Positions 31,700-58,084 of a stretch of DNA of 64,000 nucleotides are shown in pieces. The notes below the pieces were generated by a model. It ran no database searches. It saw nothing but the letters and a program-made list of their open reading frames with translations, and was not told the origin of the DNA. This stretch comes from Apostichopus japonicus. Lineage: Eukaryota; Echinodermata; Holothuroidea; Aspidochirotida; Stichopodidae. The DNA lies in contig NC_092561.1 in assembly GCF_037975245.1 (NCBI RefSeq), forward strand, positions 9,235,001 to 9,299,000, given 5' to 3'. Numbering within the stretch: position 1 is the first letter of the stretch; every line of letters starts with the position of its first letter. A program made the position numbers and the translations under genes.

Positions 31700-34600
31700 A
31701 TGAATCAAAAACTTACTCTTGATTTGCTTCGCTTGGCTGGTAAGTATATATAACTTTGTGAATATCCTCTTTTTTTCCCAATAAACTGTTAAACTGATTC
31801 TACCAATCAACCGCTGCAAAGACTTTCTGCCTGCCCACATATAAAAAAAAAAACACAAACAACGTGCAATAATTAGTTATTACAATAAAAGCATATGCCC
31901 GATTCTTATATACAAAGTTGATTAGGCAAGTCGTTGGGCCAATAGTGTTGCTCCTTGGTAAAGTAACGTAATTTCTCGGACATTATCGATGTGTGATATG
32001 TAAGTAGCTAACGTTATCTGTTCTGAGCATGCTCACTACATATATACATGTGTTATGATGCAAACGCATTCATGCAGTTATAGCCTGTTCTTATTTTGTT
32101 AACGTGTTGTAGGCGGGATTTTACGAATTAAGGGTTGTGGATGTTGGTTCGTTGAATACAATGCCCACATAGGTGGGGTGGGGGGGGGGGGGGTCTGGTA
32201 CACCAGAAGAAAATTTCAAAGTTTACACGCCAAAATGGTGCATTCAGAGACTTATTTAGACTATAAGTTTGGTCTTTAATTCGGTCTAAACGCGAGGTGG
32301 TGCTAATAAATACTTTTGAATGGTAAAACTATTCAGTTTGTACGCCAATGAATAAAAGACTACAACATGATACGACAATGGCTTCACTTTACTTCATCAT
32401 TCGAAAATAACCTTTAAATTTCTTTAACAGGATTACTTGGCTTCTGTAGAGACTCCAAAAATCGCCATACTGGACGAGAGATAGATTCAGTGTTTGATAC
32501 ACTGGCATCAGATGTTAGCTCTTTGTTAAAGTAAGTATTTTACGACACAATGATAAGAGACACATGTGTTGTAGGATTATCAGTCGTTTATCAAGGACTC
32601 TGCCCGGTAGCTGTGCCTAGCCCCCCACCCCCTCCTCCCTCTCCCCAAATATTTGTCTATTTTCTTAGCCGTTTGGGAGTTGTTCTTCAACAAGATTTCC
32701 GTCATATAAGCCAACGATGATGGTTGGGTTTGAGTCGACTCTAATCTTGACATAATTTCATCATTTGTTGCAGGAGTTATCAGGAGATTGAAGATCAGAA
32801 TCTCAAACTGAAACAAGAACTTCGTTCCTGTCGTTGCCGAGGAGCAAGGTCCGCCCACAATGGACCAAATGGCAAGAAAAGGAAGGTATGTTGCTTACCT
32901 TAAAGTAAAATATTCAATGACCATCTTGACTTATCATGGTTTCTATGTGATTGCAATGAAGGAAGAATATGCGTTTGGTGAACAGGAGCGTAACCACGTA
33001 TACGTTGGTGGCGGGGGTGTTATCCTCACCCCTGCCCACTCCCTCCCCGCTGGTTGACAGAATATTGCAAAATTCCTAGACAGATATATAACCTGCACTT
33101 GCGGTATACAACCTAAACAATCGAAATTTCTTCAACAACGTTTCAAAAGTTTCTGGTCATTTTGTAGAAATGAATTTCTAATAACCATATGTATTGTGTG
33201 TTACTATATATTGAACAAATAAAGTACAGTTTTAATGCGATTTGTTCGAATATATTCAGTATACCGTCGATAGTGTAAGCCAGTCTTATTATGGCAACTT
33301 TTATACCTGTAGGTATTCCCAATATTAATAGTAAGCCGGATACGTAACTGCAGTGATAAAAAGAAGCATCACCAAATCACCCACGCCTTCCCCCACCCTG
33401 CCCCACCCCTTCCCACCCCTTTCCTACCCTTCCTCACCGCTTTATGTGTTTTTGTGTCAAAGTTTAACACATTTGATGTTTGTCTTCACAGAGGAGACAT
33501 CAAAGCACTTCATCCTCTGGCCGAAATCACAAGCAACGTCACAGCAACAGGGCTGTCGTAAACGCTAACGGCAGGAACTTGAGCAATGGTAGCAACGGTG
33601 GTGCTGCTGGTAACATTAGTGGTGCTTATGGTTACGGCAGCATTGCGCAGACCAATGGCAGTAGCAACCAAAGTCACACGAACGGGTACAGCAACAGTAG
33701 TGGCTCCAACTCTAGTTCCAGTCACCAGATAGTTGTGCCACATGACGTCATGGTCAAGGCGCAGGCGGAAATGCGAAAAGCCGGTTACGAGCTTCTTGAT
33801 CAGCTTGGACACGGTGGCTTTGGTTTGGTCTACAGAGGACGACCACTGAACAATACTCCCTACACCCCAAGTCTGGTAAATATATATATATATCAGGGTT
33901 CTGCCCAGGGTGGATTGAGTGCCGGCAGGACTATCTAAGCGGAGCGCCACCATCGGTTGGCGCGGTGCGTACAAGAAAATTTTGGGTTTTGGAAACCCCC
34001 CAGATGGCCGGAAACGGCCCTTCCCGAGTATTCTGAGCCACATGTAGACAGCTTTGAAATGAGATCTCATGTCTGGAATTTTTCATAATTAATGAAAAAA
34101 GTTAGGACAAATATCTGGAGCACCAGAGTACAGACCAGCCGGTGGTGCCTATTATTAAATAAATCATTCAGGCTACATGTGCCGCGAATTTTCCCAGGTA
34201 CCTTGCCAAACAACTGTGAGATCATCCCATGTCTAACACCTGTTTGTTAACATTTTTTGGCACGTTGCCAGGGAACTTTTCATGGAGTAAACTTTTTTCG
34301 TTCCACTCTAGAATTAATTAGGTCAGTCAGTAAAGGATCGGTAAAGTTATGCGAAATGATATCTTAGACGCTCAAGAAAAGTAGGTAAAATATCCCCGTT
34401 AAATTTAGGTAAAACACACCTCAAGCCAACTGACTCCTCCGCATGCACACCCCATGAAACACGAGGCACAGTCCATACCATACACGCATAGCACGATATC
34501 AAGGCCCCCTTGCTATGGCCGTCTTTATGAAAGTTACCCTTGTAATCACATGTTTTAGGCCCCTTGGCATGATTAACTCAATGCTAAATATTGTTTCCAT

Positions 34601-36028
34601 GTTCTTGTAGAAAACGTAAACTCCGCAAAATACAATTAGTTTTGATTTTGTAGTTACGTGAGATCCGTTATAACCGCCGAGGTGGTTAGGCTATTTGCTA
34701 TACACTTAACTATGGTAGGATATTATTTTTTCGGTATTTTTGGAAATGCTAGAAAATACTTTCTTTTCCCCCGCTTAACACCAGATGTGGTCTTACGGTA
34801 TATTCATAAATGGATGCACTAGAGCCTTGTTTACATGACGTTAGTTGCATTTAGTACGCTAGCAAGTTTGGCGTGAATTTTTCGAAAGTGCTTTGCTCGA
34901 TCTTTCGTAAAATTTGAAAGGTGTAGCCTACCACCTTTCCGTACACAATTGGTACACAATTGATTTTCAGTTTGTTCTCTGTACGGTGAAGTGAATAAGT
35001 TGTACATTGAGTATAAACTCATCGCGAATGCAAAAAACGATGCGGGGATTTCCAGCAGACAAATGTTTTCTTTGCAGGATTACTGAGTCAGTTGAAGGGA
35101 ATCCCGCACCTTAGTGGGAACACTGAACTGAAGTCAAATTCATACGAAAGAAAACGTTTACTAACCAACATACAATACAAATATAAAAGAACGTGGAATG
35201 GCAATATTGTTCAAAACATTTCCCGCGAGGCTGATTTATTACAGCAACCTTCCCGCGCTGGGCCGTGGGTGTCCGTGTGACACGTATACCCTGAAGCTTG
35301 CGAAATAGCCATTGTAAGTGGGTTGGGGACACATCATTACTCGTTGGTATTGTGACTAAAATTGCTAGCACGCTCTCTGAACATTTTCCTTTTGTTTCTG
35401 AAACTTTTCTTGTGAAATTTTACATTTAGTTTTTTTTATAGCTGTACTGATTTGTCCTTTGTGTTTTTTTTTTCGTCCCGTTTTTTTTTTCTATTTTTTT
35501 TGTCCGATTTTTTTTTTTTCGCCAGCCGGGCTGGATTTCCCGCGAGCATCGCGGAATTCCCGCGAACCTTGTTCGGACGGTTCGCAAGGTTTTCCAGCCC
35601 TTGTCACTCGTGCCAAATACAATATGATGTAAATTCACCCGCTACGAAGGTTAACGGCCGTATGTGTACTAGCTAGCTGGATAGTGCCTGTGTCTCGCGC
35701 GATAAAAGTAGATATAAATGAAACTATCAAAAGTAAGATCGGGAGTTGGAAACGGAAAACAGTCATTGATCTGGAATGCGGAACTCCGGTAATTTTTACT
35801 AAGTATGACACTGTGATGTGTTGGATATTTTGAACAGTTATGAACTGGATTTCCCCTAGTCTCAAACAGATTGTTTCTGTACGTTCGACCCTCCGGCTAT
35901 GGAGCTGTTTCTTGGAGTTCCTATCGAAAATAAGTGCCGGTCGGAAAAGTCACTCAGGCAGATTGTGGCGGTCGGTAATTCAGCGTGCTGGTCGGGCCCG
36001 ACCGGCGCCGACCGGCAGCGGCAGAACC

Positions 36029-36099
<71 letters not shown>

Positions 36100-37135
36100 A
36101 AAGGATAACAATATTTGTTTCATATCTTGAACACTTTTTATGTCAATTACTAAAGTGCATTGCCCGTTGACCTAACATACTATATAGCTTTTAATATCAT
36201 GATAATATTGGTGTCACTTGTCAGGCTTCCATGGTTTTTGTATAGTCTAAATATAATATGATATCGTCACATTTTGCACCCACCACGTGACTTAATATAG
36301 GTATTAGTTCGCATCATACCACTATATTTGGAATATCTTATACTTGGTGTAACACTGGTTTAAGAGTCTGTATTCGTATCTTTTACAGGAGGTTGCCATC
36401 AAGTTCACCAAATGCAGTGATATTCACTTATGGACCACTCTTCCCAATAGCCCCGATCAGATACCGTTAGAGGCAGCAGCTCTTGTGGCTCTGGAATCTG
36501 TGACCAGTGTTGTGGACCTTCTTGGCTACGGTCAAATTTCCTTAGGCAATGATGACGTCTTCACTCTTGTGATGGAGAAACCAGCCGGTTGCCTCTCGTT
36601 CGCTTCATATTTAAGACGACAAGCACCGCTGACTGAGTCTATGGCTTTCTTCTTCCTCGAACAACTCGTTTCCATAGTGATGGCTATCCATCGATGTGGC
36701 TGGGTACATGGAGACCTGAAACCCAGTAACTTGTTGATTTGTGATCCAGATCAGCTTAAAGCCATCGACTATGGACTAGCCAGGGAGGTCGTCAATGATG
36801 AATGTATCGTACCCGCAGCTGGTGGTACATTGTTATGGAACATACCTCCCGAGCGAATAAACGGAGCGTACGACTTGGTCAAGTCTACAGTCTGGTCTGT
36901 GGGTGTAATCTACTATTGTATGGTCTTTGGAAAACTGCCATTTCCATCTCTTAGGAAGGCAAAAAACAGCCCTCTAAGATGGCATCACAACATCTCTAGT
37001 GGAGCTAAATTTATGCTACAACGTTTATTGGATCCAGAACCGAACAGACGAGTGGCAATTCAAGATCTAGAACAACTGATCCAGACAAACGCTCCTCCGA
37101 GCGGCGTCCTGGAAATTCGTAGACTGCTTAATTAA
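31700..37135 (+). CDS. PIM-like Ser/Thr kinase, copy 1 (5 exons, 460 aa)
   Basis: Exons 31700-31739, 32431-32530, 32774-32885, 33492-33875 and 36389-37135; every junction is GT-AG and phases agree (1, 2, 0, 0). Residues 1-46 are helical, 30-62 look like a short coiled coil (KSYQEIEDQNLKLKQEL), then CRCRG and a basic NLS-like GKKRKRRH at 80-87. Residues 90-165 are Ser/Asn/Gly-rich. The kinase domain runs from about 183: glycine loop GHGGFG (190-195), VAIK lysine K217, likely helix-C Glu240, hinge MEKPAG, catalytic loop HGDLKPSN (Asp321), DYG (Asp339), PPE (365-367) and VWSVGVIYYCMVFGKLPF. The hinge proline and PPE/VWS.G..Y.MV.G..PF recall PIM kinases. HGD (no Arg) and DYG are unusual, but Lys217, Asp321 and Asp339 remain, so activity is plausible. 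Substrates are unknown. Its last intron carries a hAT insertion. Confidence 0.88.
33894..36031. mobile_element. hAT-like insertion in kinase intron 4, 2138 bp
   Basis: Ends CAGGGTTCTGCC and GGCAGAACCCTG are exact inverses and sit inside a TA microsatellite, whose repeats mask the 8-bp target duplication. Kinase copy 2 has a plain TA tract at the same intron position, so this is a post-duplication insertion. Inside are one 100-bp core copy (33930-34028, inverted), the block shared with 17745-18505, and T-rich and CGCGAA-rich sequence near 35450-35600. No transposase is recognised. Confidence 0.85.
36031..36094. repeat. (TA)n microsatellite
   Basis: About 31 TA units, the right-hand part of the microsatellite split by the hAT insertion. 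Confidence 0.9.
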
Positions 37136-37169
37136 TCAGCCTCGGCTCCATCAAGGAGAGAAACTTTGA

Positions 37170-38800
37170 GTTAATTGACTCAATCTTCTATTATTATGTA
37201 ATAGCTGAGTACAATGCATGAAGGTAGCCAATTATTGTTTCTTTCCGAGTGGATCGAACAGAATAGTGAAGATTTTGAGAAAAGTGACTCACGATTCTTT
37301 GGAATATGTTATAGTTGAGTGAAAAGCATATTTGGAAATAATCTTCGCTTGTCTTTTGTGAAAGAAAACGGAATTTATGAACAAGAGAATGGTTCTTCAG
37401 GATCTATAACATTCAGGATCTATAACATCTGATCCAGACGCACAGTGCTGCAATGCAGCTGATGGCAGAGCACAAGTTTGGATCCTCCGTGGATCAAACA
37501 GAGAAAGAGAGAGAGAAATAGAGAGAGAGATTTTGAGAAAATTGACTCAATCCTTTGGTATTATGCAATTGCTGAGTGAAATGCATGATGGGAAATAATC
37601 TTTGCTTGTCTGTTCTCAAAGAAAATCTGCAAATGCATCTGATGGCTGAGCACAAGTTTGGATCCTCCGTGGATCAAACAGAGAAAGAGAGAGAGAGAAG
37701 TATAGAGAATTATTTTGAGAAAAATGACTCAATCCTTTGGTATTATGCAATTGCTGAGTGAAATGCATGATGGGAAATAATCATTGCTTGTCTGTTCTTA
37801 TAGAAGAGAGTGGTTTTTCAGGATCTATGACAACTCATCCAGACGAACAGTGCTGCAATGCATATGATGGCTGAGCACAAGTTTGGATCCTCCGTGGATC
37901 AAACAGAGAAATAGAGAGAGAGATTTTGAGAAAATTGACTCAATCCTTTGGTATTATGCAATTGCTGAGTGAAATGCTTGATGGGAAATAATCTTTGCTT
38001 GTCTGTTCTCAAAGAAGAGAGTGGTTCTTCAGGATCTATAACAACTGAACCAGACGCTCAGTGCTGCAATGCATCTGATGACTGAGCACAAGTTTGGATC
38101 CTCCGTGGACCCGGCAAAAAGGGAAAGAGGGAGAGAGAGATTTTGAGATAATTAACTCAATCCTTTGGTATTATGCAATGGCTGAGTGCAATGCATGATG
38201 GGAAATAATCTTTGCTTGTCTGTTCTCAAAGAAAATGGAATTTATGAACAAGACGGAATGGTTCTCCAGGATCTATAACATCTGATCCAGACGCACAGTG
38301 CTGCAATGCAGCTGATAGTTGAGCACAAGTTTTGATCCTACTTGATTAAACAGAGAAATAGAGAGAGAAAAAGAGAGAAATATTTTGAGATAATTGACTC
38401 AAACCTTTGGTATTATGCAAAGGTTGAATGCAATGCATGATGGGAAATAATCTTTGCTTGTCTGCTATGAAAGAAAACGGAATTTATGAGCAAGAGAGTG
38501 GTTCTTCAGGATCTATGACAACTCATCCAAACACACAGTGCTGCAATACATCTGATGGCTGAGCACAAGGTTTGATCCTCCTTCGAGCAAACAGAGAAAG
38601 AGAGAGAGAGAGAGATTTTGAGATAATTGCCTCAATCCTTTTAAATTATGTAATTGCTGAGTGAAATGCATGATGGTAAATAATCTTTGCTTGTCTGCTC
38701 TGAAAGACAAAGGAATTTATGAACAAGAGATTGTTTCTTCCGATCATAACAACTGATCGAGACTCATACAGAGCCTTATATCTCTGGACTCATATAGGTT
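37170..38800 (+). repeat. Tandem array in 3' UTR of kinase copy 1 (180-240-bp units)
   Basis: Units contain CTTCAGGATCTATAACAACT, CACAGTGCTGCAATGCA, a GGATCC.CCGTGGATCAAAC block, an (AG)n stretch, TGACTCAATCCTTTGGTATT and TGATGGGAAATAATCTTTGC. The GGATCC-type block recurs at 37479, 37660, 37887, 38098, 38332 and 38574. The array lies between the stop codon and a polyA signal, so it would form most of a roughly 1.9-kb 3' UTR. Copy 2 has the same array with fewer units. Confidence 0.85.
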
Positions 38801-39029
38801 GCAGTGCAACCTATAACTTAGCGGAAGGTTCCACCCGCCGTTGATGATTACGGAGAGAAAAATTTGAGATATAGACTCAATCTGCTATTTATGAACCGGT
38901 AGTTACTGCATGACCAAGCGCATCATGGGAATTGGTTATCTTTTGTAAATGCCGTGTGATCATTATGTTCACCTGAAATGTGCGTCAACGTGAAGAAACA
39001 TTGTTTATGCATTCTGTACGTGAATGCAA

Positions 39030-39035
39030 AATAAA
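39030..39035 (+). terminator. PolyA signal of kinase copy 1
   Basis: AATAAA in the context GTACGTGAATGCAAAATAAA, conserved at 57652-57657 in copy 2. Confidence 0.6.
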
Positions 39036-39200
39036 GTAATTAATTAAGTAAAAAACTCTCGTCTCTTGCGTATAATTGTGTTCGTTAATGAGTGTCAGTA
39101 TAGTGAGGGAGGGGAGGGGAGGGTGGTTGGGGGGTGGGTAGTAGGAGTATATATTTCGCTAATTAATTCAGCAGCAGGAAAATATTCAAATAGTTACGAA

Positions 39201-40329
39201 TTGGTACATATGTTGACAAACCGGAGTTTTTTTATATCGAAAGTTACCTTGAAGCGATTAATTTATTCATATTTAAAAGAGTATTTTGAGCTTAGAAATG
39301 AGCCTGCCATTCGAATGCATATAACGAATGTATGAATTAGGTAAAGGCCTATGTGTAATTTAAGTTGACACTAAATTTCCCTGCCATTTTTGACAATACC
39401 AGGTTGCTTTATATTTCCGACAACCTGGGGTCGGCTGTTAGACATATTGAACTAAGCACAGGATGTATTTTCCGTTTTTTTGGTGGTCATATCTCGAGAA
39501 AAACAATTATCTTAGTAAGATGAACAAACGTATTACAACAACTGTACAGAGCGCCATCGCACCAAGTAAAGACACCGTACCTGCAGTGCACATGCGCACA
39601 ATACATTAACTGTGGATTACATTAACGTAATCGCAGGTATAGCGTAGCATCAACAGCACACGTAAGTTTCTTAAACTTCAGTCTTTTGGGCATAAAAGGT
39701 TACATTTTTCCAATAAAAGGAAAGAAAGCTTTCCTAAAACTATCCGGAGGCCTTCTTAATTCTAAACTGAGTCCAAATTACAGGTCAAAATTACTCCTAC
39801 CGTGAGCGGCTTCGCGAACTACAGTACAGTATAGGCCTAGCCTTATCACCAACCGTGACTCTGTATAGGCCCTAGGCCTAGCGGCTTTCATTTTGGCCTC
39901 TTGCCAACGTTTTAGCACAAGTGTTGTAATGATGCTACAACCTTCTTAGTTAGGTTTACGTTATTGTAATTTTATGAACTTTAGGACATGGTGAATGCAA
40001 TGATCATGGTGCACCTGGCAGGCTTATCCATACATTCAAGGAGCTGTCTGGTTTAGCAAATTTGTAAACCATAGCTGCAGGCTAAAGTAACTTAGTAGGG
40101 TAGGCCTAGGCCAACTACAGTACAGTATACCTTTGTCAGATTTTGGAAATTTGTTATCCAAGGGTAGGCCTACCGTAGGCTAGGCTTAGTAAACAGCTGT
40201 TTTTAATGTTATAACACTTGCAGCAGCACCAACATTTCGCCTAAAACATTAAGAACAGAGTTTAGCTTAGAATTTTGCAAAGACACAGGAGTGTGGTCAA
40301 AATTTCAGACCATCATGGAGGGATAGAAC
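39201..40329. other. Possible 5' end of a further gene; AGGCCTA-rich
   Basis: No coding exon. A donor-like CACACGTAAGT at 39657-39667 follows a moderately GC-rich stretch, and 39830-40200 is dense in TAGGCCTAGGC words as in the regions upstream of the DED genes. A noncoding first exon is possible but unproven. Confidence 0.3.
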
Positions 40330-41230
40330 CATTGGCGGAGAAATTGGGGGGTTTTAACACCCCCACTTTTTGAAGAGGGGGGTTGGCCCACACAATCAAC
40401 CCCCCCCCTAGTTTTTGCCAGTAATATTCTGTTATAGCCTATGTTATGTGCTCCAAATGGCATAATAAATCAAATTTATTAAATTTGAAATTGTTAAAAT
40501 GATGTCAACCTTTTACCTGGTACATCAACAATTAACGACCGAAAACCGAGTTAGAATTGACCCACACATTATTTCTAGCCCCTTTCCCCCACCTTGCGCA
40601 TCGGAACTTGTAGCTCATAGCGCTAACTTCACCTCACAAAAGACATACACAAAATAACGTTTTGTCACTGTTGAATAGCTTTGGAACTGTATGCACTTGC
40701 CAACTTCAACGAGGTGTTTCTTAGTACATGTACGTAGGCAATATGAGTGTCGAAATCTGTCGCTAGGCTAGCGCGCTTTGGCACTATCAATGCGAGGTCG
40801 ATTTCGCTGCACGTGCCTTACGTCTTACACAGCACCGTTTGGTAAAAATGTACTCTTAAAAAGTTGATTGGATACGGCCAATAGGCTACTGTATATAATC
40901 CATGGTGGCCGTTTATTTACAAGTTGAGTTACTTACAACATGAAAAAACAAAAACTCTTGCTTTTCATTAATTATAGTAACACATCAGTGACAGAACATG
41001 AGATTTCAATTTTCAAAATATGAAATGATTAAATGCAGCTTTTCCAGGCCTGGGCAGTGCCATTTACTGCAATCTGGGAGGTAATATTTGCCCAAAAATT
41101 CTTGTGCACTTCGCACCAACTTATGGTGGCTCTCCACTTAGATAGTGAGCCAGCAGTTATGACTTTTTATTTCATCAATGGCCTGCAACCCCCCCCCCCC
41201 CCCACTTCTGACAAGAAATCTCCGCCACTG
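40330..41230. mobile_element. hAT-like element (CAGTGGCGGAG family), 901 bp
   Basis: Ends CATTGGCGGAGA and TCTCCGCCACTG with a perfect 8-bp target duplication GATAGAAC (40322-40329 and 41231-41238). One 100-bp core copy lies at 41047-41146. No transposase. Confidence 0.9.
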
Positions 41231-43093: not shown

Positions 43094-44650
43094 AAGTTGT
43101 ACCTCACCTCACCTATCCCGGAGTCTGGTAGACCGTAGGGGCGCCACAGATGCCCTCCCAACTATTACTTTCCACTTTTTCCTGTCCTCGGCCTCTCGAA
43201 GGGCATCAGGCAGTTTGAGGCCCGTCCACTCTGGGATGTTGTCCTTCCATCTTTTCCTCTGTCTGCCTCTCCTTCTTCCTCCCGGTACCGTGCCCTGCAG
43301 TATGGTCTTGGCTAGTCCTGTAGATCTTGTGACATGGCCATACCATCTCAATTTGCTTTTTTTCACAATGGTGAGGAGGTCATCGTAGGGCCCGATAGCC
43401 TGGCCAATTCTTTTCCTCACTTCTTGATTGGAGATGGGGTCCCTGTAGGATATGTTGAGGAGTCTGCAGAAACATCTCATTTCTACAGCTTGTATCCTCC
43501 TTTCGATGTCTGCTGTCAGGGTCCATGACTCACAGGCATAGAGGAATATTGAGGTGACAAGGGAGCACATCAGTCGGATCTTCGACCGGAGGGTGATGTT
43601 CCTGTCCTTCCAAATTAGCTTCAGTTTCGTTACTGCTGATGTTGTCTGTGCAATCCTGGAGAGTATTTCTGGCTTTGAACCTTCGTCTGTTACTATTGCT
43701 CCCAGGTACTTGAAGCTCTGAACCGTTTCCAGCTTTTCGCCATTGGCCCTGATGTCTACGTTGATGCCATCGCTGCTATTGGTCATCAGCTTGGTTTTTT
43801 GTGCATTGATCTCCATCCCGTAGGCTGCCGAGGTCTTGTCGAGGCGTTCCACTAAACTGGAGAGCTCTGCTTCTTTTCCTGCAAGGGCATCAATGTCATC
43901 GGCAGAACGTAAGTTGTTACATGTTCTGCCACCGATGCTCACTGTCCCTCCATGCATATCTAGAGCATCCGACATGATTTTCTCAAGGAAAACGTTGAAG
44001 AGAGTAGGCAAGAGCAAGCAACCTTGCCGGACTCCGACTGTTGTTCTGAACCACTCCCCTATTGCACCATTGAAGATGACTGCGCTGGTGGCTTTGTCAT
44101 AAAGCTGTTGGATCACTCTGGTGAGGTTGACATTGAAGTTGTAGTGCCTCATAGTTGCCCATAGAGCCGCATGCCAGACTCTATCAAAAGCCTTTTTGAA
44201 GTCTATAAAGACATGGTAGAGGTCTTGCTGGTGTTGTAGGTAACGTTCGCACAGTATTCTGAGATTGAAGATCTGCTCTGTCATGCTGCGACCAGCTCTA
44301 AATCCAGCCTGTTCCTCCGCAATGATTGCTTCTGCTTGTGGTTTCAGTCGGTTTAGCAAGATCTTTAGCATTACTTTACTCGGGTGGCAGATGAGGCTGA
44401 TTGTGCGATAGTTCTGGCACTGTTGTAAATTGCCTTTCTTTGGAAGGGTGATGACCAAAGACTGTGTCCATGGTGTGGGCCAGTTTCCTGTCTGCTAGAT
44501 CTTTTTGCAGATTGTGTGTAGTGTGTTGATGGCAGCTTCTCCCCCTGCTTGAATCAGTTCTGCTGGGATGTTATCCACTCCTGCTGACTTGCCCTTTTTC
44601 AGTGATGAAAGTTGTAAGCAACCTTTTTCAAAAGTTGTAGGCAACTGCAA
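43094..44650 (-). pseudogene. LINE reverse transcriptase, 5'-truncated and inactivated
   Basis: A non-LTR retrotransposon fragment. On the minus strand the frame begins around KKGKSAGVDNIPAELIQAGG, is interrupted by TAG at 44495-44497 where the family expects Trp (KKI-stop-QTGNWP), and continues for 449 codons. Motif A is FIDFKKAFDRVW; motif B is RQGCLLLPTLF, with Leu replacing the usual Ser; motif C is LRSADD, with Ser replacing the usual aromatic or hydrophobic residue before ADD. The C-terminal part has LRWYGHVTR and a basic GGRRRGRQRKRW. The 3' end is a short GGTGA repeat at 43097-43110. The endonuclease half is missing. It is a dead-on-arrival copy; clade not assigned. Confidence 0.9.
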
Positions 44651-44720
44651 TATAAAGTGAGAAATTAGCTCAACAGCAGCAAAGCATAACCAAAAATGAA
44701 ATTCCATGAAAGGCTACTCC

Positions 44721-45626
44721 CAGTGGCGGAGCTAGGGGTATTGGTCGGGGGGGGGGGTGAGAATAGTCTGTAGGGGCGCTTTGACACTATCTAAGCGGAG
44801 TGCCACCACAGGTTGGCCGGAGCCTACAGAAATTTTTTGAGTAAATATACTCCCTATAGATCACCGGAAATGACCCTTTCCGGGCCTTGCTAATTTGCAG
44901 ATAAACGAAGAATAAATGGGTGTCATCGCCATTTTGTCAGAAAATTACACCAACAAAATGTGACAAATGTCAATAGGTATTTGAGAGCGCAATTAAAAAG
45001 TCAATAATCGCGAATATGTAGAAAGTGGTGAAAAGCTGAAATGGCGCCAGCAGGCATTTGAGTCCGTCAGGGGTGTAAACGCGCACACACGATGTGTTGT
45101 TTGTGTATTGTTACAAAGTGTGCGTCATGTAAATTTGCAGTGCTACTGCGCGTGTTTGTGCGAGTGTGCGTGGGTATGTGTTTGAAATTTGTTTTCGTTG
45201 GTTCTGTCTTTACGGTCATGTATATGAGTTCAGTCGATATTAAGAACGTAAATTTAAGCAAGAAGTGTTTTCCAGTGTAAAACCAAAGATTTTATGTTAG
45301 TTGTGTTTTTATTGATAAAACGTTGTATATTTGTTGTTCACATGATTATTTATTCTGTATGATTTGGATTTATGTATTTATTCTTCAATAATTGACTTAT
45401 TCATTAATTGACTTCCTGGTTGTTTAATTACAAACGTATGTTTCTTTTTCATTTGTTTAGTTACCAGACAGTTACCAGATATCACAGCAAAATAAACGAA
45501 TCGACACATTACATCTGCGTTGAATAATCTTTGGATTACTGAGTTCAGGAATATGGAATTAAGAAATCTTCATTGATTTACAAGGGGGGCATCTGCCCCT
45601 CTGACTGTATGAACGCTCCACCACTG
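44721..45626. mobile_element. hAT-like element (CAGTGGCGGAG family), 906 bp
   Basis: Ends CAGTGGCGGAGC and GCTCCACCACTG; target duplication GCTACTCC / GCCACTCC matches at 7 of 8 bases. Carries an inverted core copy (44786-44886) and, next to it, the ATTTGCAGATAAACGAAGAA block also present in the 379-bp MITE at 11157, so the short form is probably a deletion derivative of this type. No transposase. Confidence 0.85.
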
Positions 45627-46404
45627 GCCACTCCCAAATTCCTGCAAGTTTCCAGTTGCAACAACAGGAGGGTAATATGCAATAGGCAATTCACTCTAAA
45701 GGTACTCTTTGCGACAATATTACTAAGTAATGAAGTGTCTGTGCTTAAAGAATGTTTTCAGAAATGAACAGTGCTAGCTGCAGAATCTGGGGCCACTTGC
45801 TTCCATGAAAGGTACTTGATTGCCATCATAAAGTGAAAGTGGTCATGTCTAAAGTACATGTACTCAATTAGTTCTTCTAAAAAAAAACAATTAATTTTGG
45901 TTTGAACTTTGAACGGTGGAAGAACAAAGTGGGGTGGAACTTTTATGAGTGAGAATTGAACCTAGGTTGCTGCCTTGCATTGCAGCCACCCTCGATGAAA
46001 CAAGAAAAACAAAAATGTTCAGTTACCCCAAACTCACTTCATTAGCTAAGATTCTCTGATACCTGCGAGATGAATTGGCAGTGAATCATACACATGCAGC
46101 TGGGTGATCACTATTACTGACTTGATGTCACATGAAATGAGAGGAAATAAACCCGGAACTAAAACTTAGATCTGGACATTGCAGTTGGTAGCAATTTATT
46201 TGCTGTCCTTAATTCATTGGATCAAAAACTGTCTTTGATCTGTCAAAAAATAAAAGCCAACATGTTTTACTAGAGTATCTGCCACATGTAGAAGTTAACT
46301 AATTAGACGTGTGTATGTCTAGTTAGCTCATTTAATTCTTCGAGTGAGTGCAGGTATGACCAAATTAGTTTTGAGTAATTGTCTTGTGTATTTGGATATT
46401 TTAC
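45627..46404. other. Unassigned sequence
   Basis: No gene or repeat recognised before the acceptor-like ATTTTACAG at 46404. Confidence 0.35.
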
Positions 46405-48205
46405 AGATACCCCGAGAGTCACATTGCAGGAGCCAGAAAGGCAATGGAAGTCAGGTACCACCAGAGTCACATTGTGAAAGTGAGGAACACAAGTCAGATA
46501 CCACCAGAGTCACATCGTGGTAGTGAGGAACACAATTCTGATACCACCAGAGTCACATCGAGGTAGTGAGGAACACAAGTCAGATACCACCAGAGTCACA
46601 TCGTGGTAGTGAGGAACACAAGTCTGATACCACCAGAGTCACATTGTGGTAGTGAGGAACACAAGTCTGATACCACCAGAGTCACATTGTGGTAGTGAGG
46701 AACACAGTGGAAGTCAGATACCACTAGAGTCACATTTGGTAGTGAGGAACACAATGGCAGTCAGATACCACCAGAGTCACATCGTGGTAGTGAGGAACAC
46801 AAGTCTGATACCACCAGAGTCACATTGTGGTAGTGAGGAACACAAGTCTGATACCACCAGAGTCACATCGTGGTAGTGAGGAACATGAGTCAGATACCAC
46901 CAGAGTCACATCGTGGTAGTGAGGAACACAAGTCTGATACCACCAGAGTCACATTGTGGTAGTGAGGAACACAATGGAAGTCAGGTACCACCAGAGTCAC
47001 ATTGTGGTAGTGAGGAACACAAGTCAGGTACCACCAGAGTCACATTGTGGTAGTGAGGAACACAAGTCAGGTACCACCAGAGTCACATTGTGGTATTGAT
47101 CAAGGAACACAATGGAAGTCAGGTACCACCAGAGTCACATTGTAGTAGTGAGGAACACAAGTCAGGTACCACCAGAGTCACATTGTGGTATTGATCAAGG
47201 AACACAATGGAAGTCAGGTAAACCATAGTCACATTGTGGTAGTGAGGAACACAATGGAAGTCAGATACCACCAAAGTCACATTGTGGTAGTGAGGAACAC
47301 AATGGAAGTCAGGTACCACCAGAGTCACATTGTGGTAATGAGGAACACAAGTCAGGTACCACCAGAGTCACATTGTGGTATTGATCAAGGAACGCAATGG
47401 AAGTCAGGTAAAACCATAGTCACATTGTGGTAGTGAGGAACACAATGGAAGTCAGGTACCACCAGAGTCACATTGTGGTAGTGAGGAACACAGTGGAAGT
47501 CAGATACCACCAGAGTCACATTGTGGTAATGAGGAACACAATGGAAGTCAGATACCACGAGAGTCACATTGTGGTAATGAGGAACACAATGGAAGTCAGA
47601 TACCACCAGAGTCACATTGTGGTAGTGAGGAACACAATGGAAGTCAGATACCACCAGAGTCACATTGTGGTAGTGAGAAACACAATGGAAGTCAGATACC
47701 ACCAGAGTCACATTTGGTAGTGAGGAACACAATGGAAGTCAGATACCACCAGAGTCACATTGTGGTAATGAGGAACACAATGGAAGTCAGATACCACCAG
47801 AGTCACATTGTGGTAGTGAGGAACACAATGGAAGTCAGATACCACTAGAGTCACATTGTGGTAATGAGAAACACAATGGAAGTCAGGTACCACCAGAGTC
47901 ACATTTGGTAGTGAGGAACACAATGGAAGTCAGATACCACCAGAGTCACATTGTGGTAATGAGGAACACAATGGAAGTCAGATACCACCAGAGTCACATC
48001 GTGGTAGTGAGGAACACAATGGAAGTCAGATACCACCAGAGTCACATCTTGGTAGTGAGGAACACAATGGAAGTCAGATACCATGCAGCAGAGTCACATC
48101 GTGGTAGTGAGGAACACAAGTCAAATACCACCAGAATAACATTGTGGTAGTGAGGAACACAATTACAGTCAGGTACCACCAGAGTCACATTGTGGTAGTG
48201 AGGAA
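46405..48205. repeat. Minisatellite, 48-bp unit with 43-bp variants
   Basis: About 38 units of GAGTCACATTGTGGTAGTGA followed by GGAACACAATGGAAGTCAGATACCACCA minus or plus a few bases. The 48-bp form predominates on the right; a 43-bp form lacking AATGG is common on the left; a third variant adds TTGATCA. The 48-bp unit keeps frame and is open in several frames on both strands, which explains many long apparent ORFs. The most divergent unit is the first one, directly after the acceptor-like ATTTTACAG. Confidence 0.95.
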
Positions 48206-48225
48206 CAGTCAGTCAGTCAGTCAGT

Positions 48226-48749
48226 TTCCATGGTAAGGGCTATCCATCTCGTTCGCTTCATATTTAAGACGACGAGTACCGCTGTCTGAATCTATGGCTT
48301 TCTTCTTCCTCTAACAACTCGTTTCCATGGTGATGGCTATCCATCGATGTGGCTGGGTACATGGAGACCTGAAACCCAGTAACGTGTTGATTTGTGATCA
48401 AGATCAGCTTAAAGCCATCGACTATGGACTAGCCAGGGAGGTCGTCAATGATCAATGTATCGTACCCGCAGCTGGTGGGACACTGTTATGGAACATACCT
48501 CCCGAGCGAATAAACGGGGCGTACGACTTGGTCAAGTCTACAGTCTGGTCTGTGGGTGTAATCTACTATTGTATGGTCTTTGGAAAACTACCATTCGCAT
48601 CCCTTAGGAAGGCAAAAGACTGCCCTCTAAGATGGCATCACAACATCTCTAGTGGAACTAAATTTATGCTGCAGCATTTATTGGATCCAGAACCAAACAG
48701 ACGAGTCGTAATTCAAGATCTAGAACAACTGGTCCAGACAAAACTTTGA
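48226..48749 (+). pseudogene. Kinase pseudogene (copy 3, partial last exon)
   Basis: Homologous to the central and C-terminal part of kinase exon 5 only. The frame has TAA at 48312-48314 in place of the Glu of FFLEQL, and the C terminus is cut by a deletion so that it ends QTKL-stop instead of running on to RRLLN. The stretch after the stop keeps HGDLKPSN, DYG and PPE and could be read from ATG 48327 as a 140-residue C-lobe fragment. Its 5' edge has a short duplicated piece (GTTTCCATGGT..GGCTATCCAT at 48226 and 48321) next to a CAGT tetranucleotide run, a signature of a template-switch breakpoint. Confidence 0.9.
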
Positions 48750-49279
48750 GATAATTGACTCAATCTTCTATTATTATGTAATAGAGGAGTACAATGCACG
48801 ATGGTAGCCAATCATTGTTTTCCTTCTGAGAATGACAAATAAACTCAGTATTCTAGTGTAAAATTTTGATACAGACTCAAAGTGCTGCAGTGCAGCTGAT
48901 AACAGAGCACAAGGTTTGATCCATCAAGAATTGATCAATTAATCAATCAATTTAGAAGAGATACTTTGAGATAATTGACTCAGTTCTCTGTCAGAGTGCG
49001 ACAATGCATGGTGGGACGTTATTTTGTTCTTTCTGTGAGGGACGAATAAACTATTGTGTGGGAAGCTTCTTCCACCCTGTCCAAACAACAGAGTGCATAA
49101 ATACTCATACAGGATCTATAACAACTGATCCAGATGCACAGTGCTGCAAATTCAGCTGATAACTTAGCACAAGCAGTGATCCACTGTGGATCCACCGAAA
49201 GAGTGGATCTCTCTTTTATGAGTATACATGCTAAGTTAAATACCAATAAGGTCTAGTCTCTTTCATCTCATTCCTGCAA
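48750..49279 (+). other. 3' flank of kinase pseudogene
   Basis: Related to the 3' UTRs of the intact copies (TTGAC TCAATCTTCTATTATTATGTAATAG) with an AATAAA at 48838-48843 and one or two diverged units of the 3' array. No gene. Confidence 0.6.
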
Positions 49280-49308
49280 CTGAAGAAGAGCTGTGATAAA
49301 GCTCGAAA
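49280..49308 (+). ncRNA. Hammerhead-like core motif
   Basis: CTGAAGA (49280-49286), a single A, a 5-bp stem GAGCT/AGCTC with a 7-nt loop, then GAAA (49305-49308). This fits the hammerhead core CUGANGA-stem II-GAAA apart from the extra A. The second copy at 63747-63783 has the same architecture with a different stem sequence. Stems I and III and the cleavage site were not resolved, so ribozyme activity is unproven. Hammerheads are known in Penelope-like retroelements, a likely source. Confidence 0.35.
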
Positions 49309-50464
49309 TATTTTGTAACTGATTTAAGGTTTTAAGTAATAAAGTTGGAAATGAAAGTATCATATTTTTTCCTTTGATCTCCACAACAAATAATATGCTT
49401 CTTGTACTCAATATCGTACTTTTAATCACAAGTTCGTCCGACTTTTCCCTTCTTCAGATATTGTGTTTACTAGCTGGGCGTCACAAACGCACACACACCC
49501 ACCCATCCACACAATCATGAAAGCAAAGCTTACGATTATCATCGAAACCAAAATATAGGCACCAGCTTTTACAAGGTCAAGTAGAACATTACTAGATCCC
49601 ATTGCTGTCACAGACTAATTAGTATGGTGGAGGTCTATATACACACAAACAGTGAATTAAAAAGAAAACATAGTTGCAGTACATATCAAGCAAATGTATA
49701 AATTAGATTGTACTTAAAAACTGATGTTTATCCTGTTCTGGTAGGCTTAACCTAAGCTTAGTGTATATAATGAACTGAATTATTTTCCAATGTATCGTAG
49801 GCCAAACAAGCTATACTCCGATTCTGACTAGCTGATCATATAGGGCTCGGAAATAGCAGTTTCCGGCCTAAAACATGCTTTCTGACCCTCAAGCCAAATC
49901 TATTCGCATTGTACTAAGACGGTCGTGATGATATTTACAGATTAATAATAGACGCAATTTAAAAACAAAAGATTATATGTGATATGATTCCAAAGCTAGT
50001 AAGTAAATTCCCCAACATTTCGGCACATACAGCCGGTGTACATTTCTCGGTTAACCGGTTTCAATAACGTGAGCGGATGAGAGCCTGCCAAAGGCGTTTC
50101 TAAATATAGGTAAAGGCAGATGGGACGTCAGTCTATAGATTTACTTCCCCATTTTGCAGGAACCGTCGTTAATGCACATTGTTACAGTCCAGGTACTGTG
50201 TATAGGTGCGACAAGCATGTTCCAATTACCTTTAAGCCATACTTGTTTTTTTGTACTGGGGAGAGGGCAGTCGAAGTAAGTTTCGTGACTGTAATATTAT
50301 ATATATTAATAATGGTATTCTTGTAGGGAGAAAATAGGATAAGTTGAAAGATGTTTTCTTCATATATATTGGTCTAGTTCCGAGGATATGGAAACTAAGC
50401 CAAACAACATTGAACTAAATAACCCCATGAACAAACCGAAATTGTAATGAAACCAGGCGTATAT
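49309..50464. other. Unassigned sequence
   Basis: No gene seen. TTCTTCAG near 49453 on the opposite strand may be a decayed partner of the hammerhead-like motif. Confidence 0.35.
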
Positions 50465-50717
50465 GAAGTATGTATGTATGTATGTATATGTGATCTTCCC
50501 GCAAGCAGGAACTCGCGAAAGAAGCCATGCAGGCTTATAGACTCGCAAGCTGACCGAAGCCAATCTCTCGGCACACATCCATTTAACGTCCATGTCGGGA
50601 AGTTGTTATTGAACAACACCCTTGCCAGACGACACACATTGCTGTCGGCGGGGAATCGAACCGGGGATCTCATGACTGGGAGACGCCGGCGTTAACCACT
50701 AGGCTATACACTCCGCC
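50465..50717 (-). mobile_element. tRNA-derived SINE
   Basis: Read on the minus strand, it begins GGCGGAGTGTATAGCC, contains an A box TAGCCTAGTGGTTAAC (complement of 50691-50706) and a B box GGTTCGATTCC (complement of 50652-50662), giving a tRNA-like head of about 75 nt. A body of about 150 bp follows, ending in a (CATA)n tail at 50465-50489. The tRNA head is a pol III promoter, not a functional tRNA gene. Confidence 0.85.
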
Positions 50718-50742
50718 AAAGTAGACTTTGAAATGACATTTG

Positions 50743-50904
50743 CAGAGCCACCGACACCGGGTTGGGGGCGGGGGCATGGTCCCCAATAATTTTCAAAGCA
50801 ATCATTTTCAAATAGACCTTTTCAACATGTAAAGTTGGTGAATTTTGACAACTTTTTTCTTGGCCCCCCTCCCACCCCAATAGGAAACCCGTATCGGTGC
50901 TCTG
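50743..50904. mobile_element. Small TIR element (MITE), 162 bp
   Basis: CAGAGCCACCGACACCGGGTT at the left is matched in inverse by AAACCCGTATCGGTGCTCTG at the right. The termini CAGAG..CTCTG are hAT-like, but no 8-bp target duplication is evident. Confidence 0.6.
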
Positions 50905-51449
50905 AATAGCAAATTGAAGGAGGAATGTAAAAATATACTTCTTTAACGTTTGGAGCGATGCAGAAAATATGACAATAATCTGAATTTATTTTTCCATGTA
51001 TTACGAATCAATCTTTGAATTGTACGGTGGCTTAATAGTGACATAGGAAAGGAAAAAATAGTCCTCAAATCTCAAATGTTGTCAAAATTTATACTTTTGT
51101 TTAACCTTGCAAGTCTTAGTTAAGTCAAACCTTTGTACAACTTTGGTACAAATCCATCATGTATGTACAGAAATCCCAAATTCCTGTCGACTGACTGAAC
51201 TCAAAAGAAAAAAAAAAATTACATAGAGGAATATAAGAGTTGTAAAAACTTATGACCCAGTATAGGTAAGTGGTTTACAAATGTGCACAAGTCGGGGGAA
51301 CATTTGATATTGTGTCCCCTCTCTCAAAAAGTGGGGCACATGTCCCCCTCCCCCTCCCCAGGATTGACGCCCATGGGTATAGGCACTATGGGGTAAAATG
51401 CACCCACCTCCATAAACAAATGTTTGGCGCCCTCAACTCCCCCTTCCCA
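50905..51449. other. Unassigned sequence
   Basis: A decayed GC-rich repeat end (CCCCTCCCCAGGATTGACGC near 51350) and otherwise nothing recognised. Confidence 0.3.
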
Positions 51450-52310
51450 ATTGAAATTTGCGATGTGTTCAGAAAAAATATCAGAAAGATACACGACTCT
51501 TTCGGCTTCTACTGGCAATAATTGAAATTCGTCTTCTTCAAAAAGTCTACTTGTCTGAAGATGATAAAAGTTCTGGAAATGATGAAAACCGCAAAGCTTC
51601 AGGTGCATTGGCCCCCTTAACCTCGATCGAGCCGACAGGGCTCCGCGATCGCGCCCATGGTGCCAGCTTGCATTGCCTGCATCATGTGGTGCCTAAATGT
51701 TGCATTCATTTTGCTGGGCCCCCTCCCCACCCCACCTACAAATGTTCGGCGACGATAAACCTGCAATTTCCGTGTTTCTATATGCAGTTACTTCAAAAAA
51801 GAGCAAGGGAGTAACATACAGCTGAAAGATTTGAAAACATTTAAAAATGACTGACCACCATACTTCATCGGGTGAACGAGCTACCACTACATGTGTGAGG
51901 TCTAAACTGCTGGTCTGTTCCCATCACGCAAAGCTCCTAATCCTTCTTCCTGGGAGGGGGGGGGGGGGGGGTTGAAGATAACCAGCACAGCCCAGCCGTT
52001 TATGAAGAGCTTTTGACACAAAACTTCATATGTAACAGAAATACACACACACGGACATCGTTTTACCCCTAACCCATATATGGACCCTACCATGGGTTAC
52101 ACCTCGAGACTCATTACTCAGAAACATTAACCGTCATCGTGGAAACGGTTGATATGGCAACCGAGATGACTTACCGACTCCAATATTTTATCATCTCTAT
52201 CGGAGTGATGAGATAACAAAGAGTATGGATGAAAGAGTATGGAATAACAGTGTAAAAACAGTATTGCTGCTGTCGGGCACAATATATATTGTTGCCACCC
52301 AATAACGCCA

Positions 52311-52705
52311 TATAAGTACAGCTATGTTGATATGAGTGTATGCAGAAGCCGCGTACATAGTAACCAAGCAACGGGTGCGCATGTTAGATTTAAGTCTAGA
52401 TATGTTACAGCGCGATACAAAATCGAGCGCAATATACAAATGCGCGACGTATAAGCGACGAAGGGGCCAGACGCCGTACCTTATCTCTGCTCTGCCCACT
52501 GTACAACGGCAGCTCCATGTGTGTATACACTCAGATCTGGTGTAGCGCAATACGATATCTTTGTACGCATCACGCAGAAAGTTTCTAGACGCAACACGTA
52601 CAAATCAGCTTCGATATATACATGTAACACTATGTAGATATTTGCGCGCGTTCTAAGGCATCGTATGCGCACGAAAACACTAATTTACATATGTGACGAA
52701 ATAAA
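52311..52705 (+). promoter_or_regulatory. TATA-like upstream module of kinase copy 2
   Basis: TATAAG at 52311 and AATAAA at 52700-52705 stand at the same places as in copy 1. The TATA box is shorter than the copy 1 TATATAA. Confidence 0.3.
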
Positions 52706-52844
52706 GGTTGTGTACCTTATCAATGACAACAACAACATTCACATATAATCACACAGTATTATACGCGTTTTGCTATACGACTGTTACACACGTACTTTCG
52801 AAAGCTTCTTGAAATCTTCGGGTTTTAATTAAAACATCATCAGA

Positions 52845-55800
52845 ATGAATCAAAAAATTACTCTTGATTTGCTTCGCTTGGCTGGTAAGTATGTATAACT
52901 TTGTGAATAGCCTCTTTTGTTTCCAATAAAATGTTAAACTGATTTTACCAATCAACCAGTGCAAAGAATTTCTGCCTGCCCACATATAAAAAAAAAACCA
53001 CAAACAACGTGCAATTATTAGTTAATAACAATAATAGCATATGCCCGATTCTTATATACAAAGTTGATTAGGCAAGTCGTTGGGCCAATAGCGTTGCTCC
53101 TTGGTAAAGTAACGTAATTTCTCGAACATTATCGATGTGTGATATGTAAGTAGCGAACGTTATCTGTTCTGCGCATTCTCACTACATGCATGTGTAACGA
53201 TGCAAACACATTCATGCAGTTATAGCCTGTTCTTAATATTTTTGACGGGTTGTAGGCGGGATTTTACGAATTAAAATTAAGGGTTGTGGATGTTGGTTCG
53301 TTGACCCACATAGGTGGGGTGGGGGGGGGGGGGGCTGGTACACCAGAAGAAAATTTCAAAGCTTACACGCCAAATGGTGCATTCAGAGACTTATTTAAAC
53401 TATAAGTTTGGTCTTTAATTCGGTCTAAACGCGAGTTGGTGCTAATAAATACTTTTGAATGGTAAAACTATCCAGTTTGTACGCCAATGAATGAAAGACT
53501 ACAACATGATACGACAATGGCTTCATTTTACTTCATCATTCGTAAAATAACCTTTAAAATCCTTTTACAGGATTACTTGGCTTCTGTAGAGACTCCAAAA
53601 ATCGCCATGTTGGACGAGAGATAGATTCAGTGTTTGATACACTGGCCTCAGATGTTAGCTCTTTGTTAAAGTAAGTATTTGACGACACAATGATAAGAGA
53701 CACATGTGTTGTAGGATTATCAGTCGTTTATCAAGGACTCGGACCGGTAGCTGTGCCTACCCCCTCCCCCCTCCCCCTCCCTCTCCCCTCTCCCCCAAAA
53801 TGTGTCTATTTTATTAGCCGTTTGGGAGTTGTTCTTCACCAAGATCTCCGTCATAATAAGCCAAAGATGATGGTTGGGTTTGAGTCGACTCTAATCTGGA
53901 AATTATTTCATCATTTATTGCAGGAGTTATCAGGAGATTGAAGATCAGAATCTCAAATTGAGACAAGACCTTCGTTCCTGTCGTTGCCGAGGAGCAAGGT
54001 CCACCCACAATGGACCAAATGACAAGAAAAGGAAGGTATGTTGCTTATGTCTATATAATCGATTTGTAAAATATTCAGTGACCATCTTGACTTATCATGG
54101 TTTCTATGTGATTGCAAGGAAGGAAGAATATGCATTTGGTGAACAGGAGCGCAACCACGTAAACTTTGGTGGTGGGGGTGTTATCCTCACCCCTCCCCAC
54201 TCCCTCCCCGCTGGTTGACAGAATATTGCAAAATTCTTAGACAGATATATAACATGTATTTGAGGTACAACCTAAACAATCGAAAATTCTTCAACATCGT
54301 TTCAAAAGTTTCTGGTCATTTTGTAGAAATGAATTTCTAATATCCATTTGAATGGAGTGTTACTATATATTGAACAAATAAAGTACAGTTTTAATGCGAT
54401 TTGTTCGAATGTAGTCAGTATACTGTCGATAGTGTAAGCCAGTCTTATAATTATGGCAACTTTTATACCTGTATATGCATTCTCGATATTAATAGTAAGC
54501 CGGATACGTAACTCTAGTGATAAAAAGAAGTATCACCAAATCACCAACGCACACGCCCTCCTGGACCCCTTCCCCACCCCTTCCCACCCCTTCCCACCCT
54601 TTATGTGTTTTTGTGTCAAAGTTTAACACATTTGATGTTTGTCTTCACAGAGGAGACATCAAAGCACTTCATCCTCTGGCCGAAATTACCAGCAACGTCA
54701 CAGCCACAGGGCTGTCGTAAACGCCAACGGCGGGAACTCGAGCAATGGTAGCAATGGTGGTGCTGCTGGTAACATAAGTGGTGCCTATGGTTACGGCAGC
54801 GTTGCTCGGACCAATGGCAGTAACAACCACAGTCACACAAACGGTAACAGCAACAGTAGTGGCTCCAACTCTAGTTCCAGTCACCAGATAGTTGTGCCAC
54901 ATGACGTCATGGTCAAGGCGCAGGCGGAAATGCGAAAAGCCGGTTACGAGCTTCTTGATCAGCTTGGACACGGTGGCTTTGGTTTGGTGTACAGAGGACG
55001 ACCACTGAACAATACTCCATACACCCCAAGTCAGGTAACTATAAATATAAATATATATATATATATATATACCTATATATATACATATATATATATATAT
55101 TTATATATATATATGTATATGTGTGTGTGTGTGTGTAACAAAGGTTTTTTCTTCGACGTATTTGCCATACAGTATATGCTAGAAATCAAATAATGGTCAA
55201 CCGTGACCAGACTTCAATAGGCACGTCCCTCCCATCCTACCAAAGCATTTCCTCTCGCTGAGAGGATTTAGTTATCTAATTTAACTCTCCTTTAATTAAA
55301 GTCTCACAAATATGAAATGAAAGGCTTCAATCTTAAGACGAGTGAAAACTTTAGACATTTTTGAAAAATTTAGAAATTTAGCTTTTAATTTATAGCCTGC
55401 TAACATTTTTGAGTCAACCCTGACAACAATATTTGTTTCATATCTTGAACATTTTTGATGTAAATTACTAAAGTGCATTGTCCGTTGACCTAAAATACTA
55501 TAAAGCTTTTTAATATCACGATAGTATTGGTGTCACTTGTCAGGCTTTCATGGCTTTTGTATAATCTCAATATAATATGATATCGTCACACTTTGCACCC
55601 ATCACGTGACTTAATATAATTAGTTCGCATCATACCACTATATTTGGAATATCTTATACTTGGTGTAACACTGGTTTAAGAGTCTGTATTCGTATCTTTT
55701 ACAGGAGGTTGCCATCAAGTTCACCAAATGCAGTGATATTCACTTATGGACCACTCTTCCCAATAGCCCCGATCAGATACCGTTAGAGGCAGCAGCTCTT

Positions 55801-56451
55801 GTGGCTCTGGAATCTGTAACCAGTGTTGTGGACCTTCTTGGCTACGGTAAAATTTCCTTAGGCAATGATGACGTCTTCACTCTTGTGATGGAGAAACCAG
55901 CCGGTTGCCTCTCGTTCGCTTCATATTTAAGACGACAAGCACCGCTGACTGAGTCTATGGCTTTCTTCTTCCTCGAACAACTCGTTTCCATAGTGATGGC
56001 TATCCATCGACTTGGCTGGGTACATGGAGACCTGAAACCCAGTAACTTGTTGATTTGTGATCAAGATCAGCTGAAAGCCATCGACTATGGACTAGCCAGG
56101 GAGGTCGTCAATGATCAATGTATCGTACCCGCAGCTGGTGGTACATTGTTATGGAACATACCTCCCGAGCGAATAAACGGAGCGTACGACTTGGTCAAGT
56201 CTACAGTCTGGTCTGTGGGTGTAATCTACTATTGTATGGTCTTTGGAAAACTGCCATTTCCATCTCTTAGGAAGGCAAAAAACAGCCCTCTAAGATGGCA
56301 TCACAACATCTCTAGTGGAGCTAAATTTATGCTACAACGTTTATTGGATCCAGAACCGAACAGACGAGTGGCAATTCAAGATCTAGAACAACTGATCCAG
56401 ACAAACGCTCCTCCGAGCGGCGTCCTGGAAATTCGTAGACTGCTTAATTAA
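52845..56451 (+). CDS. PIM-like Ser/Thr kinase, copy 2 (5 exons, 460 aa)
   Basis: Exons 52845-52884, 53571-53670, 53924-54035, 54651-55034 and 55705-56451, with exon lengths (40, 100, 112, 384, 747) and phases identical to copy 1. Within the last exon only four residues differ from copy 1 (GYGK/GYGQ, HRL/HRC, CDQD/CDPD, NDQC/NDEC), whereas the Ser/Asn/Gly linker of exon 4 differs at about a dozen positions. All catalytic features are kept: GHGGFG, VAIK, HGDLKPSN, DYG, PPE. The basic patch is DKKRKRRH. The lower divergence of the kinase domain than of the linker, together with indels in introns and flanks, suggests constraint on the catalytic part or local gene conversion. Regulation is not visible beyond the shared TATA-like module and 3' repeat array. 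Confidence 0.88.
55040..55137. repeat. TA/TG microsatellite in kinase intron 4
   Basis: Interrupted TA repeats followed by (TG)n; the uninterrupted-by-transposon counterpart of the tract at 33878-33893 / 36031-36094. Confidence 0.85.

Positions 56452-57887: not shown

Positions 57888-58084
<197 letters not shown>

Follow-up and report, generated by a model that had tools for sequence, protein, structure and literature searches.

A 64,000-nt window of the Apostichopus japonicus genome (GCF_037975245.1, NC_092561.1; C1:9235001-9299000) contains two complete copies (A and C) and one fragment (copy B) of a kinase gene family in which the Arg of the HRD catalytic motif is replaced by Gly. We propose that this family is a lineage-expanded set of divergent PIM-like Ser/Thr kinases standing beside a canonical PIM gene, an explanation which, taken whole and together with the mechanism suggested below, we regard as evenly balanced. 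Judged from their sequences, these kinases are probably active and nuclear.

Gene models and catalytic motifs

Copies A (31700-37135) and C (52845-56451) each comprise five exons encoding 460 residues (Table 1), and all eight of their introns are bounded by GT-AG, in agreement with an earlier note on this DNA that had described two intact 460-residue copies with five exons. The five-exon structure is not a chance reading, as the same structure is found in six more complete copies elsewhere in the genome. A third, broken copy claimed in the same note is indeed broken, but it is not a whole gene: copy B is a fragment of exon 5 of ~500 bp with one in-frame TAA (genome-search match C1:9283243-9283746, window 48243-48746), beginning 36 bp after a 48-bp minisatellite (46404-48207). 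This minisatellite holds ~39 copies of its unit, and several reading frames are open through parts of it.

Copies A and C differ at 34 codons, 13 of these synonymously. Along copy A, the motifs begin at residues 66 (CRCRG), 81 (KKRKRR), 214 (VAIK), 319 (HGDLKPSN) and 338 (IDYG), and 45 of the 76 residues of the exon 4 linker are S, N or G. Exons 1-3 of both copies encode an N terminus that is probably helical, includes a putative coiled coil and runs into a basic patch at its end. The predicted structure of exon 5, obtained with 10 paralogous rows, was of low confidence (mean predicted local distance difference test score 33.3; predicted template modelling score 0.28).

Table 1 Positions of the exons and the exon fragment of copies A, B and C within the window
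Feature	Position	Strand	Basis
Copy A, exon 1, start codon	31700..31739	+	Splice sites and frame
Copy A, exon 2, helical N-terminal module	32431..32530	+	Splicing; conserved in paralogues
Copy A, exon 3, candidate coiled coil, CRCRG, start of basic patch	32774..32885	+	Splicing, paralogue comparison
Copy A, exon 4, remainder of basic patch, linker rich in Ser/Asn/Gly, glycine loop	33492..33875	+	Splicing
Copy A, exon 5, kinase domain from EVAIK to stop codon, HGDLKPSN, DYG	36389..37135	+	Splicing, domain and genome searches
Copy B, exon-5 fragment truncated 5', in-frame stop	48243..48749	+	Reading frames, genome search
Copy C, exon 1, start codon	52845..52884	+	Splicing
Copy C, exon 2	53571..53670	+	Splicing
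Copy C, exon 3	53924..54035	+	Splicing
Copy C, exon 4	54651..55034	+	Splicing
Copy C, exon 5, kinase domain to stop codon	55705..56451	+	Splicing, domain and genome searches

Searching the genome with exon 5 returned 26 matches, a count to be read as a lower bound: at least 14 are loci of this PIM-like HGD kinase family, and 12 are other kinases, matching part of the query only at 27-35% identity. The family loci lie on contigs C1 (five, three of them in the window), C7 (two), C21 (five), C22 (one) and C3 (one). Eight carry complete five-exon frames, C1_10.207 among them; one is uncertain (C21_6.62, where the end of exon 2 is altered); and five are broken or partial, namely window copy B, C1_10.215 (frameshift in exon 4 and stop in exon 5), C7_14.378 (exon 4 interrupted, stop present), C3_13.35 and C21_6.38. 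An origin of the copies as retrocopies was rejected because they retain introns.

HGD is constant at all 13 loci with a readable catalytic loop (HGDLKPSN at 12, HGDMKPSN at one), and at each of these the HRD Arg is lost and the DFG Phe replaced, the DFG site reading DCG at seven loci, DYG at four, DYV at one and DCD at one. The glycine loop, the β3 Lys, the αC Glu, the Asp and Asn of the HGD loop and the Asp of the DFG site are kept in all eight complete copies, in which the activation segment ends in [PA]PER. The earlier note was thus right about HGDLKPSN and DYG in copies A and C and about their catalytic Lys, Asp and Asn. DYG and CRCRG do not serve as marks of the family, as it had supposed, since both vary between paralogues: DCG, DYV and DCD occur at the former site, and RRCRG replaces CRCRG in two of the eight complete copies. 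The combination of HGD and DYG that it described is present but not unheard of, as passages of PMC2639636 describe VRK kinases in which DyG and loss of the HRD Arg coexist in working enzymes, and suggest constitutive activity.

Relationship to PIM kinases

When the whole domain was used to search the PDB, PIM ranked first for copy A (89.5 bits; best non-PIM PASK, 72.5), for one C21 copy (76.7 bits; CIPK23, 63.5) and for a profile of six of the eight complete copies (86.8 bits; CDPK2, 80.0), bearing out the PIM-like kinase domain of the earlier note. A phylogeny with PIM kinases, which that note had proposed as a check, points the same way: in an 18-row tree of seven of the eight complete copies, human PIM-1 and PIM-2, the canonical PIM of this genome and eight other kinases of the genome, the family joins the PIMs with support 95/93. 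An alternative grouping of the family with two other kinases of the genome was rejected mildly (approximately unbiased test, p-AU 0.034, uncorrected for the tree having already been seen). Family members are 26-31% identical to the three PIM rows and 18-24% to the eight other kinases.

The canonical PIM gene lies on C20 at ~31.924-31.928 Mb, carries HRD and DFG, and is 60.0% identical to PIM-1 over 255 columns. A phase-0 intron falls directly before EVAIK in the family and directly before VAIK in this gene, placing the two within one codon of each other, whereas two further introns found inside the kinase domain of the canonical gene are missing from the family. Between the β3 Lys and the αC Glu, a W..L..P.E insert was found at 10 of the 14 family loci and at none of 20 other kinase loci. 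These 20 reduce to 14 distinct places, include some without coverage of this region, and count the canonical PIM, where an exon break hides the insert; the pattern itself was derived from PIM alignments after these had been inspected. The hinge E-R-P, a hallmark of PIM, is present in PIM-1, PIM-2 and the canonical gene, and reads E-K-P in all eight complete family copies.

The family departs from PIM in other respects. PIM kinases are short and have no separate N-terminal module, whereas ~165 residues of N-terminal module and linker stand ahead of the kinase domain here, and the HRD and DFG of PIM-1 and PIM-2 give way mainly to HGD with DYG or DCG. Because HRD, DFG and the short architecture are all lacking, we do not file the family as a PIM kinase; we consider it PIM-like and probably descended from PIM.

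N-terminal module, selection and recent history

Beyond the kinase domain, the full protein matched no Pfam family at the cut-off, and neither did residues 1-88 taken separately. The best Pfam match to residues 1-88, VirD1 (E 0.051), fell below the cut-off, and likeness to GpsB in the PDB was limited to four chains (E 0.74 to 1.5); both were taken as chance or coiled-coil composition. The N-terminal part thus has no convincing match in either database, in keeping with the earlier note, which saw no family name to fit the whole protein. Exons 1-3 are conserved in all eight complete copies. What stands of the nuclear localisation signal (NLS) named in the earlier note is a basic patch alone (KRKR in seven of the eight complete copies, KKKR in one), which makes it a candidate signal.

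A genome search with the N-terminal exons gave 29 matches; these fall at 12 of the 14 kinase loci plus three additional loci (C3:7.746 Mb, C3:7.788 Mb and C18:1.988 Mb). The modules at C3:7.746 Mb and C18:1.988 Mb contain stops; that at C3:7.788 Mb has a TGA and a TAA inside its two exon matches, the TAA lying at the exon end, as in good copies. No kinase match was found within the 5 kb of the C3:7.746 Mb locus, while a weak, gapped exon-5 match within the 6 kb of the C18:1.988 Mb locus (E 0.008, 38% over 39 residues) may be a kinase remnant. The module found no match at E <= 1 in the 19.8 kb surrounding the canonical PIM gene. Borrowing of the module from another gene of the same genome found no support, its matches lying only with family loci or remnants. 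At C3:7742000-7747000 (L053), the decayed module is near an LTR (long terminal repeat)-retroelement-like polyprotein frame of 946 residues on the opposite strand.

Selection was compared between two clades over 16 pairs (A, C, C1_10.207 and C7_14.391 against C22 and three C21 copies). Residues 1-88 gave a nonsynonymous divergence (dN) of 0.10-0.15 and a ratio to synonymous divergence (dN/dS) of 0.17-0.28, the kinase domain 0.19-0.20 and 0.26-0.36, and the linker 0.39-0.48 and 0.23-0.55, the linker values being unsure with dS near or above 1. By these figures the N-terminal module is the part best conserved between clades.

Within the recent pair, exon 5 of copies A and C differs by 0.9%, exons 1-4 by 2.5-5.2%, introns 1-3 by 5.2-8.4%, the aligned end of intron 4 by 5.9% and the flanking DNA by 9.1-9.6%, with a kinase dS of 0.020. 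Exon 5 of the two copies may have been homogenised by gene conversion, as this pattern of divergence suggests; protein constraint alone, even if strong, is insufficient to explain the likeness, because under it synonymous divergence would not be expected to fall this low.

Tandem arrays of ~180-240-bp units follow copies A and C (37448-38763 and 56586-57429). Pieces of these units align with the DNA 3' of copy A and with short segments from the end of its exon 5, which suggests that gene ends were amplified into a satellite. Intron 4 of copy A holds an insert (33894-36031) with 12-bp inverted ends, CAGGGTTCTGCC ... GGCAGAACCCTG, lying between AT repeats as seen by eye; it is probably a non-autonomous DNA transposon, and 54 bp of its sequence are found again near 44786-44837. 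Elsewhere in the window, a 461-residue open frame on the minus strand (43109-44494) encodes a reverse transcriptase domain (RVT_1, E 5.8e-36) of an element resembling a long interspersed nuclear element (LINE), and a TAA trinucleotide array of 65 copies occupies 57890-58084.

Proposed mechanism and alternative explanations

We posit that the domain would phosphorylate Ser/Thr substrates without requiring phosphorylation of its activation loop, for two reasons: Gly replaces the HRD Arg that reads the phosphate, an Arg that VRKs lack too, and PIM kinases are described as constitutively active (PMC1368972, PMC10380471). Output would then be set by the expression level and placement of the kinase, with the conserved N-terminal helical module pairing or docking the protein and the basic patch carrying it to the nucleus.

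Several results weigh against an active kinase of PIM descent. A profile built from exon 5 only (10 rows) places CDPK2 (76.0) and TTK (74.6) above PIM-1 (71.4); the branch leading to the family is long (3.37), in a tree without PASK, TTK and VRK; the DFG site drifts to DCG and has lost its Gly in C1_10.207 (DYV) and C3_13.35 (DCD); and residues 1-88 of the recent pair A and C have accumulated seven nonsynonymous and two synonymous changes (dN/dS 0.98).

The drift of DFG and the loss of its Gly in two copies make a pseudokinase or scaffold role, in which binding would preserve the fold as catalytic function fades or has gone, the main rival explanation. Loss of the HRD Arg and replacement of the DFG Phe at all 13 readable loci, absence of the Gly at two of the 13, a between-clade dN lower in the N terminus than in the kinase domain, and the five broken or partial loci among the 14 would all suit such a role. 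We nevertheless consider it unlikely, as the full set of catalytic residues listed above persists in all eight complete copies, the kinase domain evolves between clades under a dN/dS of 0.26-0.36, and VRKs, which combine DyG with lack of the HRD Arg, are active according to passages of PMC2639636.

It is distinctly improbable, in our view, that the family belongs to another branch, CDPK/TTK-like or VRK-like, and that its likeness to PIM is a long-branch effect. CDPK2 and TTK head the exon-5-only matches, but they align only from profile position 53-55 on and drop below PIM once the whole domain is used, as the three whole-domain searches agree. Identity to PIM of just 26-31% leaves room for such an effect, yet the tree support, the near-identical intron position, the PIM-type insert and the E-[KR]-P hinge all argue against it. 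Passages of PMC2639636 document DyG and the missing HRD Arg in VRK kinases (VRK1 and VRK2, of the CK1 group); the 13 readable family loci likewise lack this Arg, and four of them share DYG. The same passages give SxD as the VRK ending of the activation segment, where the family has [PA]PER, and no VRK appears among the 60 best PDB matches listed for family queries.

A further explanation would see in the loci largely redundant duplicates that have no roles of their own, recent copies that were spread by duplication, homogenised by gene conversion and are heading to decay. The gradient between A and C from 0.9% in exon 5 to 9.1-9.6% in the flanks, the five broken or partial loci, and the three loci with N-terminal exons only, each with stops in at least one exon match, are in keeping with this; we think it very unlikely for the family at large, in which two diverged clades retain open frames under purifying selection.

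Returning to divergent PIM-like kinases as the preferred explanation, a bolder version can be offered tentatively: a new PIM-born subfamily of the sea cucumber lineage, still multiplying, in which an activation-loop-independent kinase, partly converged on the VRK active site (HGD...DYG), was coupled to an NLS and a new helical module for pairing or docking. The family was not reported in the literature found on PIM kinases in sea cucumbers and echinoderms, a search outside which fell RefSeq names, other echinoderm genomes and most subscription journals, and 'pim' is absent from the main text of both the Holothuria glaberrima genome preprint (PMC13228809) and the Paracentrotus lividus genome paper (PMC10855541).

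The family seems to be a diverged offshoot of known enzymes, not a novel type of system. For specialists in kinases or echinoderms it holds moderate interest; to most biologists it will be an ordinary lineage-specific expansion. If active, these kinases would represent a second route, beside VRK, to an enzyme without the HRD Arg and with a non-Phe DFG motif, as well as an example of a PIM relative gaining an N-terminal module and multiplying, and the paralogues with Tyr or Cys at the DFG site would offer a natural test of how much motif drift a working kinase tolerates.

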